Part shown: positions 3,396 through 32,168 of the stretch, in pieces
Layout of the letters: each line of letters begins with the position of its first letter
How positions within the stretch are numbered: the stretch's first letter is position 1
The notes under the pieces: model-generated
The model's database searches: none
What the model saw: the letters and a program-made list of their open reading frames with translations, nothing else
What the model was told of the DNA's origin: nothing
Assembly: GCA_902781315.1 (NCBI GenBank)
Contig: CACZIT010000034.1
Location: forward strand, 1 to 33,366
From: an uncultured Prevotellaceae bacterium
GTDB taxonomy: Bacteria > Bacteroidota > Bacteroidia > Bacteroidales > Bacteroidaceae
Direction of reading: 5' to 3'
Length of the DNA stretch: 33,366 nt
Translations under genes and position numbers: made by a program

Positions 3396-3456
3396 GGTCG
3401 ACCAAGAGAGTACAGAAAATGGAGGAAAAAAGCAGAGTTCGGTTTACCAGTTTCTG

Positions 3457-3581
3457 TACCACGCGCTGGTAATACTTGTACCAGCGCGTGGTAATGTCTT
3501 TACCAAGGCGTGGTAAACCGTTTACCAGGCCGTGGTAAAGGTATTACCAGGCCGTGGTAAAGACATGGTAAAGCCGCGGTA
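3457..3581 (+). repeat. Palindromic repeat array A1 (22-bp period, 6 units)
   Basis: Units of 15 bases, mostly TACCA-N5-TGGTA, start at 3457, 3479, 3501, 3523 and 3545, with 7-base spacers; a sixth unit at 3567 keeps only the right arm. Unit 1 (TACCACGCGCTGGTA) and unit 2 (TACCAGCGCGTGGTA) are exact reverse complements, so the transcript could fold into a 15-bp hairpin with a 7-base loop. Units 4 and 5 are identical (TACCAGGCCGTGGTA). Same architecture and period as the array at 17013-17247. Confidence 0.92.
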
Positions 3582-3836
3582 GACAGGAGAAACGGCATTT
3601 GTGCTGGCTCAATAGCTGGCACATGCTCCTTTTGGACAGAAATGATGGTAGGCAGTCAATGCACTGACTGTTAATGACTTTGCGTCTTGTGGGCAGGTGT
3701 ACCTACTTTACGCTATATTCGTGCCGGTTCCTTCATCAGCGTAAGCCGACAAGTCCGAATTCTTCATCTCGGCATGTTTTGAGTCACCTTGATGAAGGGA
3801 CAGGCATAAAACAGGTTTAAAAAAACGATTATTTCT
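3582..3836. other. Intergenic stretch without a recognisable gene
   Basis: About 250 bases with no convincing ORF. I see a small hairpin (CAGTCA-6-TGACTG near 3656-3673) and distant inverted arms CCTTCATC and GATGAAGG around 3730-3800. It may be remains of the broken gene or upstream control sequence. Confidence 0.4.
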
Positions 3837-16088: not shown

Positions 16089-16508
16089 GAATGTAGTGCT
16101 TTGGCTCTGCCGCTGGCGCAGCACTTACCACTTTTCCCCGTGGAACTGTTGGTTCTGGTGCAGCGCGAGAGGAAAGTCCGGGCAGCATAGGACGCTCCAC
16201 TTCTGAAAGTAGAAGCTGTCTGCGAAGGCAGGTCAGGGTAGAAGAAAACAACCGCTCCGCTTAAGGGAGTAAGGGTGAGAAGGTGGTGTAAGAGACCACC
16301 AGCCGGCGGGTGATCGTCGGGCTGTGCCCACTGGAGGCTGCAAGTTCATGTAAACCATCGACCGAGGGTTGTCCGCCCGAGTGAAGCAATTCAGCGATGG
16401 AGGGTAGAACGCTAGAGCCGCAGGGCGACCTGCGGAGTAGATAAATGGCAGGCACCTGACAGCCTGTGGCGTCAGGAACAGAACCCGGCTTATAGAAGCA
16501 CTGCATTC
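16089..16508 (+). ncRNA. rnpB: RNase P RNA (bacterial type A-like)
   Basis: About 420 bases. The core signatures are present: GAGGAAAGTCCGGGC (5' half of P4, around 16168-16183), AGGGTAGAA, GAGGGTAGAACGCTAGAGCC in the middle, and ACAGAACCCGGCTTA (3' half of P4, around 16478-16492). The ends were set by P1: GAATGTAGTGCTT at 16089-16101 pairs with AAGCACTGCATTC at 16496-16508 over 13 bp, with one G-U pair. This RNA is the catalytic subunit that removes tRNA 5' leaders. A T-rich stretch follows the P1 stem and may end transcription. It sits alone between tilS and the YkvA gene. Confidence 0.97.
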
Positions 16509-16962: not shown

Positions 16963-17012
16963 ACAGTGATTTCCTCCGCACTTTAGAAGGCAAACCAACA
17001 TATTGATTGCAT

Positions 17013-17056
17013 TACCCCGTTTTGGTAAAAGTGTTACCAGAACGGGGTAATTTTTT
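17013..17056 (+). terminator. Terminator-like hairpin formed by units 1 and 2 of array A2
   Basis: TACCCCGTTTTGGTA (17013-17027) and TACCAGAACGGGGTA (17035-17049) are reverse complements except for one position, giving a 14-of-15 stem (the odd pair is G-T) with a 7-base loop. A run of seven T follows at 17051-17057. This has the form of an intrinsic terminator for the YkvA gene. Confidence 0.75.
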
Positions 17057-17247
17057 TACCATAGCTTGGTAATATCATTACCACGTGCTGGTAAACCTTG
17101 TACCACGTGCAGGTAAACCATGTACCACGTGCTGGTAAACCGTGTACCACGTGCTGGTAAACCATGTACCACGTGCTGGTAAACCATGTACCACGCGCTG
17201 GTAAACCATGTACCACGTGCTGGTAAACCGATTACCACGCGCTGGTA
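17013..17247 (+). repeat. Palindromic repeat array A2 (22-bp period, 11 units)
   Basis: Eleven 15-base units begin exactly every 22 bases (17013, 17035, 17057, then every 22 to 17233), separated by 7-base spacers. The common unit is TACCACGTGCTGGTA; spacers are mostly AACCATG or close variants. Arms TACC and GGTA are kept in every unit while the middle varies (CGTGC, CGCGC, GAACG, TAGCT). It fills most of the 312-base gap between the YkvA gene and the convergent miaA gene. Repetitive 60-codon frames on the minus strand are by-products of the repeat. Confidence 0.95.
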
Positions 17248-17274
17248 AAAAGTTGGTAATGTTCTTTTGTTTGA

Positions 17275-23559: not shown

Positions 23560-23588
23560 GTTGTTGTGATACAACAACATACGGGACG
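23560..23588 (-). repeat. Family B hairpin element, copy B1 (divergent)
   Basis: Plus-strand GTTGTTGT-GAT-ACAACAAC (23560-23578) is a perfect 8-bp stem with a 3-base loop followed by the tail ATACGGGACG, between the prfA stop and the pyrF start. It keeps the shape and tail of family B but a different stem sequence. Confidence 0.7.
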
Positions 23589-24774: not shown

Positions 24775-25989
24775 TTAATAATTGAACTCGCCGAACTCCG
24801 AACGGATGGTGAGCGAGCGAGGGCCTTCCTCGATGTGGCCAACGACTTGTGCATCGATGTTGAACGAACGGCTGATGGCGATGACCTGTTCGGCCACTTC
24901 GGGGCGTACGTAGATTTCCATGCGATGGCCCATGTTGAACACCTGATACATCTCGCGCCAGTCGGTGCCGGAACACTCGTGGATGGCTCGGAAGAGTGGG
25001 GGTACGGGGAACATGTTGTCCTTCACCACGCGGCAGTTGTCGGCTACGAAATGGAGCACCTTCGTCTGAGCACCTCCCGTGCAATGCACCATGCCGTGAA
25101 TCTCGGGGCGAAGCTCGTCGAGCAAGCGCTTGATGACGGGAGCATAGGTGCGGGTAGGCGAGAGAACGAGCTGGCCCATATCGGGGAGGGTGAGGGGTTG
25201 AGACTCGGTCGCGACAAACGGGACGGATTCCGTTGCGGCATACGGGACGTCGTCGGTGAGGCGATACTTGCCGCTATAGACGAGGTCGTCGGGCACGGCG
25301 TGGTCGAAGCTCTCGGGATACTTCTCAGCCAGATACTTGGCGAAGACGTCGTGGCGGGCCGAGGTGAGGCCGTTGGAACCCATGCCTCCGTTGTAGCGAT
25401 GCTCGTAGGTGGCCTGGCCCGTTGACGAAAGTCCGACGATGACGTCGCCCGGACGGATGTTGGCATTGTCGATGACATCCTCGCGACGCATGCGGCAGGT
25501 GACGGTAGAGTCGACGATGATGGTGCGCACGAGGTCGCCCACGTCGGCCGTCTCGCCTCCGGTAGGCCAAATGCCGATGCCCATAGCGCGGAGATCGGCA
25601 AGGAGCTCGTCGGTGCCATTGATGATGGCCGAGATGACTTCGCCCGGCACGAGCATCTTGTTGCGCCCGATGGTGGAGGAGACGAGGATGTTGTCGGTAG
25701 CACCCACGCAGAGCAGGTCGTCGGTGTTCATGACGATGGCATCCTGAGCGATGCCTTTCCAGACGGAGAGGTCGCCCGTTTCGCGCCAGTACATGTAGGC
25801 CAGCGAGGACTTGGTGCCGGCGCCGTCGGCATGCATGATGTTGCAATAGTCGGGATCGCCACCGAGGATGTCAGGAATAATCTTGCAGAAGGCCTGCGGA
25901 AAGAGGCCTTTGTCGATGTTCTTAATGGCAGCGTGGACGTCCTCCTTGGCGGCTGAGACACCACGTTGCATGTAGCGGTTGTTGGTCAT
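24775..25989 (-). CDS. purM: Phosphoribosylformylglycinamidine cyclo-ligase (AIR synthase), with in-frame repeat insertion
   Basis: 404 residues from MTNNRYMQRGVSAAKEDVHAA. It closes the imidazole ring in purine synthesis. DPDYCNIMHADGAGTKS (ATP and substrate region), MNTDDLLCVGATDN, PTGGETADVGD and the C-terminal CTGGAQTKVLHF mark the AIR-synthase family of Bacteroidota. The frame stays open upstream through the intergenic repeats, but the family begins at MTNN, so the start at 25989 was chosen. Residues 248-263 read VPYAATESVPFVATES, a tandem octapeptide whose DNA matches the intergenic family B element. It lies between LTDD and LTLPDMGQLVLSPT, probably in a surface loop. Confidence 0.93.
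   Translation of the reverse strand: MTNNRYMQRGVSAAKEDVHAAIKNIDKGLFPQAFCKIIPDILGGDPDYCNIMHADGAGTKSSLAYMYWRETGDLSVWKGIAQDAIVMNTDDLLCVGATDNILVSSTIGRNKMLVPGEVISAIINGTDELLADLRAMGIGIWPTGGETADVGDLVRTIIVDSTVTCRMRREDVIDNANIRPGDVIVGLSSTGQATYEHRYNGGMGSNGLTSARHDVFAKYLAEKYPESFDHAVPDDLVYSGKYRLTDDVPYAATESVPFVATESQPLTLPDMGQLVLSPTRTYAPVIKRLLDELRPEIHGMVHCTGGAQTKVLHFVADNCRVVKDNMFPVPPLFRAIHECSGTDWREMYQVFNMGHRMEIYVRPEVAEQVIAISRSFNIDAQVVGHIEEGPRSLTIRSEFGEFNY
25197..25248 (-). repeat. Family B element inside the purM coding sequence
   Basis: Plus strand reads GTTGAGAC-TCG-GTCGCGAC then AAACGGGAC (25197-25224), position by position the 8-3-8-9 layout of intergenic copy B3, with substitutions only. A second half copy (GTTGCGGC then ATACGGGAC) follows at 25232-25248. 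Translated, this gives two copies of VP(Y/F)(A/V)ATES. Confidence 0.85.
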
Positions 25990-26004: not shown

Positions 26005-26098
26005 GTTGCGACGAGGTCGCAACAAACGTGACTTAGAGGGGGAGTTGCGACGGGGTCGCAACAGATGGGACTGAAGGGGAGTTGCGACGGGGGGCAAC
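26005..26098 (-). repeat. Family B hairpin elements B2, B3, B4 between lemA and purM
   Basis: Three copies fill most of the 118-base gap. B2 is GTTGCGAC-GAG-GTCGCAAC (26005-26023), B3 GTTGCGAC-GGG-GTCGCAAC (26044-26062), both perfect 8-bp stems; B4 (26081-26098) is degenerate. Tails AAACGTGACTTAG, AGATGGGACTGAAG and AAACGGGACTTAG follow. In B4 the CTTA of the tail overlaps the lemA stop codon. Confidence 0.9.
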
Positions 26099-26107
26099 AA
26101 ACGGGAC

Positions 26108-28109: not shown

Positions 28110-28128
28110 GTTGCGACGGGGTCACAAC
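28110..28128 (-). repeat. Family B hairpin element, copy B5
   Basis: GTTGCGAC-GGG-GTCACAAC, an 8-bp stem with one G-T pair, between aroE and the TPM gene. It is followed by ATACTAAACC, a weaker version of the family tail. Confidence 0.8.
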
Positions 28129-28183
28129 ATACTAAACCTAAAATCTTCTGAACATAATACCTTACGAAGAATCCCGGTGAGCC

Positions 28184-28949: not shown

Positions 28950-28967
28950 GTTGCGACGGGTCGCAAC
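28950..28967 (-). repeat. Family B hairpin element, copy B6
   Basis: GTTGCGAC-GG-GTCGCAAC, a perfect 8-bp stem with a 2-base loop, in the 47-base gap between menG/ubiE and aroE. The tail AAACTAAAACTTA runs into the menG stop codon. Confidence 0.85.
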
Positions 28968-28977
28968 AAACTAAAAC

Positions 28978-31996: not shown

Positions 31997-32084
31997 GACG
32001 GTGCTTCCGCGGGGTGCAGACGGTGCTTCCGCAGGGTGCAGACGGTGCTTCCGCAGGGTGCAGATGATGCTTCCGCGGTGTGCA
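31997..32084 (+). repeat. Tandem repeat array D (22-bp period, 4 units)
   Basis: Four 22-base units start at 31997, 32019, 32041 and 32063, each with GGTGCTTCCGC (third-to-fourth variants GATGATGCTTCC) followed by GGGTGCA. A partial fifth unit follows. Unlike family A the units are not palindromic. They lie in the leader of the DUF5715 gene. A reading frame through them exists on both strands but without any family match. Confidence 0.85.
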
Positions 32085-32168
32085 GATGATTTCTTCACGT
32101 GCGAAAAAGGGGGCAGTTGCGGGCGGGGGTGGTTTCTCCGCTGCATTCAAACAAACAGAAAAAGAACG

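Follow-up and report, generated by a model that had tools for sequence, protein, structure and literature searches.

The purM gene and its in-frame repeat

The window, by which we mean the whole 33,366-nucleotide stretch analysed, belongs to genome G000, a 3.52-Mb assembly of 60 contigs from an uncultured Prevotellaceae bacterium. On its minus strand, at 24775–25989 with the ATG at 25989, lies purM, which encodes a phosphoribosylformylglycinamidine cyclo-ligase of 404 aa that matches 3mdo_A over its full length (E 3.2e-200) and finds its best matches in Prevotella metagenome assemblies, ruminant for the most part. At 25197–25224, also on the minus strand, the gene contains a copy of a hairpin repeat with the leader GTCCCGTTT, a stem strand GTCGCGAC, the loop CGA and the opposing stem strand GTCTCAAC; the sense strand reads GTCCCGTTTGTCGCGACCGAGTCTCAAC and codes for VPFVATESQ. 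The adjoining minus-strand segment, 25225–25248, is a 24-nt duplicate of the leader and the start of the stem-loop and codes for VPYAATES. The whole segment 25197–25248 places VPYAATES at residues 248–255 and VPFVATES at residues 256–263, and the original prediction had both sequence and coordinates right. In the alignment to 3mdo_A the insert falls between LTD and GKMVLSP; an AlphaFold2 model of PurM had a mean pLDDT of 48.6 and was not used. The duplicate had been described as a half copy of the repeat. An extra unit is indeed present, but because the two nearest relatives on the tree (L258 and L263) carry VPYAATES just once, in a segment of 25 residues, it looks like, and is better called, a 24-nt tandem duplication.

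The family to which the purM segment belongs has a 9-nt leader, GTYCCGTMT, followed by an 8-bp stem around a 3-nt loop (8-3-8). The foot is mostly GTAT, GTTT or GTCT, with GTAG in some copies (for example in the transposase gene on G059 contig C31), and the stem begins G-Y-T-G. Three minus-strand copies lie upstream of purM, at 26005–26029 (intact 8-3-8, 32.3 bits), 26044–26068 (intact 8-3-8, 27.6 bits, in a 39-nt period with its neighbours) and 26081–26104 (internal deletion, 18.0 bits). Further copies on this strand are found at 23560–23584 (intergenic, stem GTTGTTGT, 35.4 bits), 28110–28134 (one G-U pair, 26.4 bits) and 28950–28973 (2-nt loop, 21.9 bits). The copies at 23560, 26005, 26044, 28110 and 28950 have structure-model E values of at most 1.4e-3. 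An Rfam search of the window at the gathering score returned RNase P RNA (class A, 16097–16504) as its only match and none for the hairpin family. Other repeats in the window are two arrays of a 22-bp unit with TACCA/TGGTA half-sites, the arrays being inverted relative to each other and 13.6 kb apart, at 3433–3605 and 17011–17271, and a tandem array of four copies of the 22-bp GACGGTGCTTCCGCAGGGTGCA at 31997–32086.

As had been proposed, the purM segment is a member of this dispersed family. The best match to GTCCCGTTTGTCGCGACCGAGTCTCAAC elsewhere in G000, identical at 25 of 28 positions, is a copy at position 2224 of locus L128 on contig C11, where it follows a transposase gene at a distance of 18 nt, and 23 of 28 positions are identical to the window copy at 26005. 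When the window was scored on both strands in 28-nt stretches against 70 strings taken from copies in the rest of G000 (each site in both orientations), 11 stretches scored at least 20, 4 scored 19 and 42 scored 18, the last being about the background ceiling. The purM hairpin of the window is decayed, forming six of eight pairs, and a structure (covariance) model alone gives it 10.1 bits and an E value of 0.9 in the window, which by itself is not significant; the case is carried by identity to other copies and by the relatives. That low score is what could speak for a chance resemblance of unrelated loop codons to the family, a reading to which we give next to no probability, refuted as it is by the 25/28 identity and by relatives in which the hairpin at that codon is intact and follows the same leader.

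To follow the family beyond the window, a pattern whose fixed positions were confined to the leader and one half of the stem was run on eight genomes and gave 181 matches, 150 of them listed. All four unfixed stem pairs were Watson-Crick in 71 of the 150 listed matches (chance, 1/256 per match) and in 18 of the 23 exact matches. Raw counts were above the reversed control in six of the eight genomes and no higher than it in G062 and G041. The stems were of 30 kinds among the matches listed, for example GCTGCGAC, GTTGCTGT, GTTGCGAT and GTTGCGGC, and covariation was 0.569 against 0.216 after shuffling in 66 family rows selected for pairing (9 mismatch-bearing strings of 75 dropped). The structure model built from these 66 copies had matches at E ≤ 1 in G000 (65), G059 (88), G028 (42), G032 (35), G055 (20) and G044 (9) and 0–3 in the other 17 of the 23 genomes, symmetric copies possibly counting on both strands.

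The purM site across Prevotella

We compared 160 PurM sequences, which include duplicates and sequences picked for their long loops, from genomes that are drafts and in many cases metagenome-derived. The segment is exactly 17 residues long in 89 of the 160 (e.g. KYKLTDAVEGSPVDAGQ), among them most relatives that lack the insert, and longer in all others; the window has 33 residues there. Relatives with a shorter segment had been anticipated, and the alignment does not have the segment in all relatives with unrelated codons. The insert, labelled by peptide, occurs at the same codon in 39 distinct PurM genes, a number that is no measure of prevalence because the fetching favoured long PurM loops. 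Of 100 genomes including G000, 94 gave a match, and a PurM match of at least 1173 nt occurs in 15 genomes other than G000; loop readings cover genomes other than G044, G061 and G094.

Pairing in the 39 inserts was compared with 4000 draws of random synonymous codons for the same proteins. A perfect 8-pair stem was present in 18 of the 39 inserts against 0.05 expected (maximum 2), and 265 of 312 pairs were formed against 168.6 expected (maximum 189). The remaining 21 inserts have mismatches, some forming only four of the eight pairs. Two repeated strings among the 39 segments were dropped from the purM alignment (A2), which was given 37, 36 of them distinct. Covariation in the inserts was 0.477 against 0.187 shuffled and 0.04–0.09 slid, and cells changed on both sides numbered 65 against 26, in shuffles that ignore relatedness. 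Two of the five covariation measures gave ordinary values (12 pair types against 11.7; 7 double-change pairs against 5.5), and G-U mismatches showed no clear excess over A-C mismatches in the few cases available (9 against 6; 4 against 7 by a stricter count). Among the GTTGACAT-like stems (VPYVDI..CQ, VPYVDV..RQ, VPHVDV..HQ and VPYADV..RQ), one pair was exchanged via amino-acid changes on both sides, I being replaced by V and C by R (VDI..CQ, VDV..RQ). Pairing is thus kept in many inserts despite changes of the stem.

The stem in purM was also compared with those elsewhere in the same genomes, for genomes other than G067, G033, G323, G392, G151, G293, G072 and G384. Among the GTTG-type hairpins listed for the drafts G261 and G149 (61% and 54% complete), none outside purM has the PurM stem, and most have GTTGCTGT or GTTGCGAC; recent copying from the bulk family therefore does not by itself account for it. 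G162 has one related copy of its PurM stem elsewhere in the genome among the matches listed, whereas purM of G204 and of G312 has the same stem as the bulk copies.

On a purM tree built without the loop, the insert is scattered over the genus and requires 26 changes, at least 11 of them by well supported branches; shuffled labels require 31.4, and 13 of 500 shuffles required no more than 26. The tree reduced the 160 sequences to 101 rows, 51 of loci L027–L080 and 8 duplicates being dropped; 40 rows were labelled VPY by peptide, and dropping L068 left 39. Recombination between species can also yield such scatter. The near sisters L257 (GTTGCGAC) and L270 (GTTGACAT) have different stems, and the ends of the inserts differ (LPDMGQ, PLPDAGQ, TVGQ).

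The same loop holds other sequences in other species. In G360 it reads KYKLTEKLPSLGEGLGVGP, an unrelated palindrome, and CTCCCTTCCCTTGGGGAGGGG has 83 matches in that genome (at most three mismatches, both strands), the PurM loop DNA being one of them, against 0 for the reversed control. Other PurM loops look like simple or palindromic repeats: GGTCAATGG in L036, GTCCCCCGAGGGGGAC in L087, and SEYS in L011 and others. The purM site is therefore filled by different repeats in different species, which, together with the kept pairing, goes further than the original prediction. By eye, the native loop (V-D-G-x-P-V-D/N) of the insert-free L005, L015, L091, L100 and L109 is encoded by an 8-5-8 DNA palindrome, one example being GTTGACGG-TTCAC-CCGTCAAC.

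A candidate transposase and copies in other genes

Several of the genes that carry the hairpin in frame belong to one protein family of about 360 residues, and it was through them that the candidate transposase was found. Four of its members matched NF047646 (REP_Tyr_transpos) with E values of 1.3e-6, 1.1e-9, 2e-9 and 3.5e-5, their scores of 28.4, 38.3, 37.5 and 23.7 bits not reaching the curated cut-off of 80 bits, and a Pfam search of the same four gave no match. When aligned, the four share DHxH (MPDHxHG) and Y-L-x-DNP motifs. About 150 additional residues at the C-terminus form a conserved extension at L196:1088–2158, L128:1088–2206, L238:907–1986 and L198:1067–2539; it has no Pfam match and a weak, non-significant resemblance to DprA (E 0.15).

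Seventeen of 27 transposase genes scanned contain a family-type hairpin with 7 or 8 pairs. In 16 it sits between the HUH and Y motifs, and one further gene, whose Y motif was missed by the pattern, holds it inside. Thirteen of the 15 strongest transposase matches hold the hairpin; paralogues of G000 and G094 (L359, L360) and most weaker matches lack it. At the G062 gene a nearly identical stem occurs three times: 39 nt before it, within it and 15 nt past its end. G045 has a different repeat at three places of this kind. In G059, GTTGCTGT lies within one transposase gene and again at the gene end, and a paralogue carries GCTGCGGC five times in tandem, in antisense and with a GTAG foot.

The transposase and the repeat also occur together across genomes. 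A strong transposase match was present in 5 of 5 genomes with at least 20 copies against 3 of 18 others (Fisher 0.0017), and the transposase was present in 15 of 16 genomes with a PurM insert against 6 of 20 without an insert or unread (P 0.00013), these 36 genomes being partly selected for having the element. Exceptions are G016, G045 and G094, which carry a strong transposase yet 0–2 copies, and G044, which has 9 copies and only a trace match. Y1_Tnp (PF01797) genes, found in 12 of 16 genomes, were rejected as partner because the three in G000 lack the element in the stretches read, two of which end at contig ends, and some have other hairpins. Other Y1 transposase genes (L112, L113, L114, L143) have 8-3-8 hairpins of their own, such as GTGACCGC-GTT-GCGGTCAG and CCCAGGGC-ATC-GCCCTGGG, which suggests that several REP-like systems may coexist in the genus.

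Copies were not confined to purM and the transposase. IleS of G000 reads WEPVEYVATKSQQDKPEI where 19 of 28 parsed loci (of 30) have 16 residues, e.g. FDPEAAQVAFEKRPEI. Over the 30 loci, copies in this same loop scored 24.5 bits in G000 (E 0.0009) and 23.5 bits in G035 (E 0.0017), and IleS of L308, L315 and L330 looked remnant-like by eye. A rule demanding at least 7 pairs, the leader and TG/CA in the stem collected 114 copies in 101 stretches, of which window 16282 at least looks false; the purM copy of the window falls below the rule. By codon usage, 34 of the 114 lie in frame with coding on both sides (26 sense, 7 antisense, 1 ambiguous), in a conservative classification that leaves 65 as "other" and 15 as "between"; a plain, noisier ORF table gave 58 sense, 28 antisense, 27 intergenic and 1 ambiguous. 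Fifteen of the 26 sense copies are in the frame giving (V/A)AT-x-SQ-like peptides. Other genes encode the peptide seen in PurM. The original prediction of an in-frame insert from a dispersed and probably mobile family is supported. By eye, 12 of 13 N-terminal sense copies read in another frame (S-V-CCGITAA-LTSC-like) and form the core of lipoprotein-like signal peptides; such copies are found at L142, L176, L179, L183, L187, L199, L206, L232, L234 and L240 (G000, G059, G032), and NCBIfam gave no match in L176.

With genes called by a simple ORF rule, the orientation of copies agreed with transcription in 41 of 49 cases (Fisher 8e-6), and 15 of 16 copies between same-direction genes followed the gene direction. 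Since intergenic copies also follow transcription, protein selection is not the only source of this bias; the coding strand may be targeted while single-stranded, or the copies may act in the mRNA. In the two contigs with at least three such copies, orientation followed the gene in 8 of 9 and the contig in 6 of 9, too few to decide.

Known repeat systems and the origin of the purM insert

The family resembles REP/REPIN sequences with their TnpA_REP transposase (REPtron) in being a short hairpin with a 5' foot, in its many dispersed copies with species-specific stems, and in an HUH-tyrosine transposase gene that holds or adjoins the repeat (17 of the 27 genes scanned). Its 8-3-8 layout falls within the fully paired stem of 7–20 nt and loop of 2–5 nt expected of a REPtron, the window's purM copy having six of eight pairs. 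It differs in its foot, mostly GTAT, GTTT or GTCT with GTAG in some copies rather than GTAG/GTGG, in its 9-nt conserved leader and in the C-terminal extension of the transposase. PMC6006769 describes TnpA_REP subclass 2.4 (RAYT group 4) as common in Bacteroidetes, with REPs in frame in its own transposase between the HUH and Y motifs. The Bacteroidetes host, the position of the hairpin in 16 of 27 genes and, by eye, double-foot repeats in some copies recall this subclass, whereas the four aligned proteins have DHxH and not NHxH (NH[IFV]H), YLxDNP and not YIxNNP, no WQ motif visible by eye, and the long C-terminal extension. The likeness is one of described features.

According to PMC8266576, in Stenotrophomonas REP_Sm a stem mismatch impairs cleavage while some base exchanges do not, only one of the two strands is active, changes at the third and fourth positions of the GTAG foot abolished cleavage, and the loop needs G first. 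Our family shares the 8-bp perfect stem, the 3-nt loop and the strand specificity; its foot is not GTAG, its loop follows no G-first rule, and REP_Sm belongs to another subclass. By analogy, cleavage that suffers from mismatches and tolerates some exchanges would fit stems that vary yet remain paired. PMC3733652 reports REPs inside ORFs, including those of tRNA synthetases, and different REPs at about the same recB site in two Xanthomonas species. Intragenic REPs are thus known and a reused site has precedent; the presence of a REP within its own transposase gene has likewise been published. In the literature searched we found no recurrently filled, pairing-preserving purM site, and there was no Prevotella or purM case among the matches listed.

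The original prediction likened the insert to Rickettsia palindromic elements. These are, as told in PMC3733652, in-frame, protein-coding palindromes, and CGTC repeats are reported there from Bacteroidetes, both of which would suit such an element here. They have, however, a CGTC tag, a loop of 4–5 nt, A-T pairs first and no known transposase, whereas our family has a GTMT foot, a 3-nt loop and stems that do not start with A-T pairs. A transposase that holds the hairpin and is present in all five repeat-rich genomes argues against a Rickettsia-type element without transposase, which we regard as highly improbable. The family looks instead like a REP of a TnpA_REP/RAYT transposase, so that the earlier interpretation as a whole is partly supported.

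We consider it quite probable that the insert is a REP-like copy, spread in trans by a divergent TnpA_REP (RAYT) transposase, that has survived in frame in a tolerant loop of PurM. By analogy with known systems, the HUH-tyrosine transposase would recognise the folded strand by its foot and stem, and most likely cuts and rejoins the single-stranded hairpin, spreading copies in trans. Copies that land in frame in a tolerant loop would survive, the commonest frame giving (V/A)AT-x-SQ peptides, and the loop between LTD and GQLVLSPT would in this way have become occupied in many Prevotella species. The pairing may have been kept by recent or repeated insertion, by recombination between species or by selection on the hairpin. 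It is plausible, if tentative, that a single old purM insertion was spread through rumen Prevotella by recombination of genes or segments and not by repeated insertion. Most inserts share the codon, the VPY start and often an LP(D/N)MGQ end, and their scatter on the loop-free tree is what recombination would give, but the differing ends, the different stems of L257 and L270, the unrelated repeat in the G360 loop and the filled IleS loop of G000 and G035 speak against it.

That the purM hairpin is functional, for example as a selected mRNA or DNA structure, and is paired for that reason, seems to us somewhat unlikely. The excess of pairs and of perfect stems over the codon draws, the covariation with pairs exchanged through double amino-acid changes, the PurM-only stems of G261 and G149 among the hairpins listed, and an orientation that follows transcription even between genes are all consistent with it. 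Against this stand the short segment in 89 of the 160 sequences, the mismatches in 21 of the 39 inserts, down to four of eight pairs, the two ordinary covariation measures and the unclear G-U excess. A further version, in which a REP transposase targets the exposed coding strand of transcribed genes and the loops of purM, ileS and the transposase are standing landing sites whose pairing is kept by selection on nucleic-acid structure at a cost in protein sequence, we hold to be unlikely.

Whether an intragenic palindrome is a tolerated passenger or a functional element has been a standing question since the Rickettsia elements. Here dozens of related species show the same codon of a housekeeping gene either unoccupied or filled with an intact or a decayed hairpin, the stems change yet often remain paired, and the likely transposase has been identified, so that insertion, loss, recombination and selection become separable by comparison. 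The purM loop, in an essential enzyme of purine synthesis, is thus a natural archive of the tolerance, and perhaps the retention, of inserted hairpins by bacterial genes.
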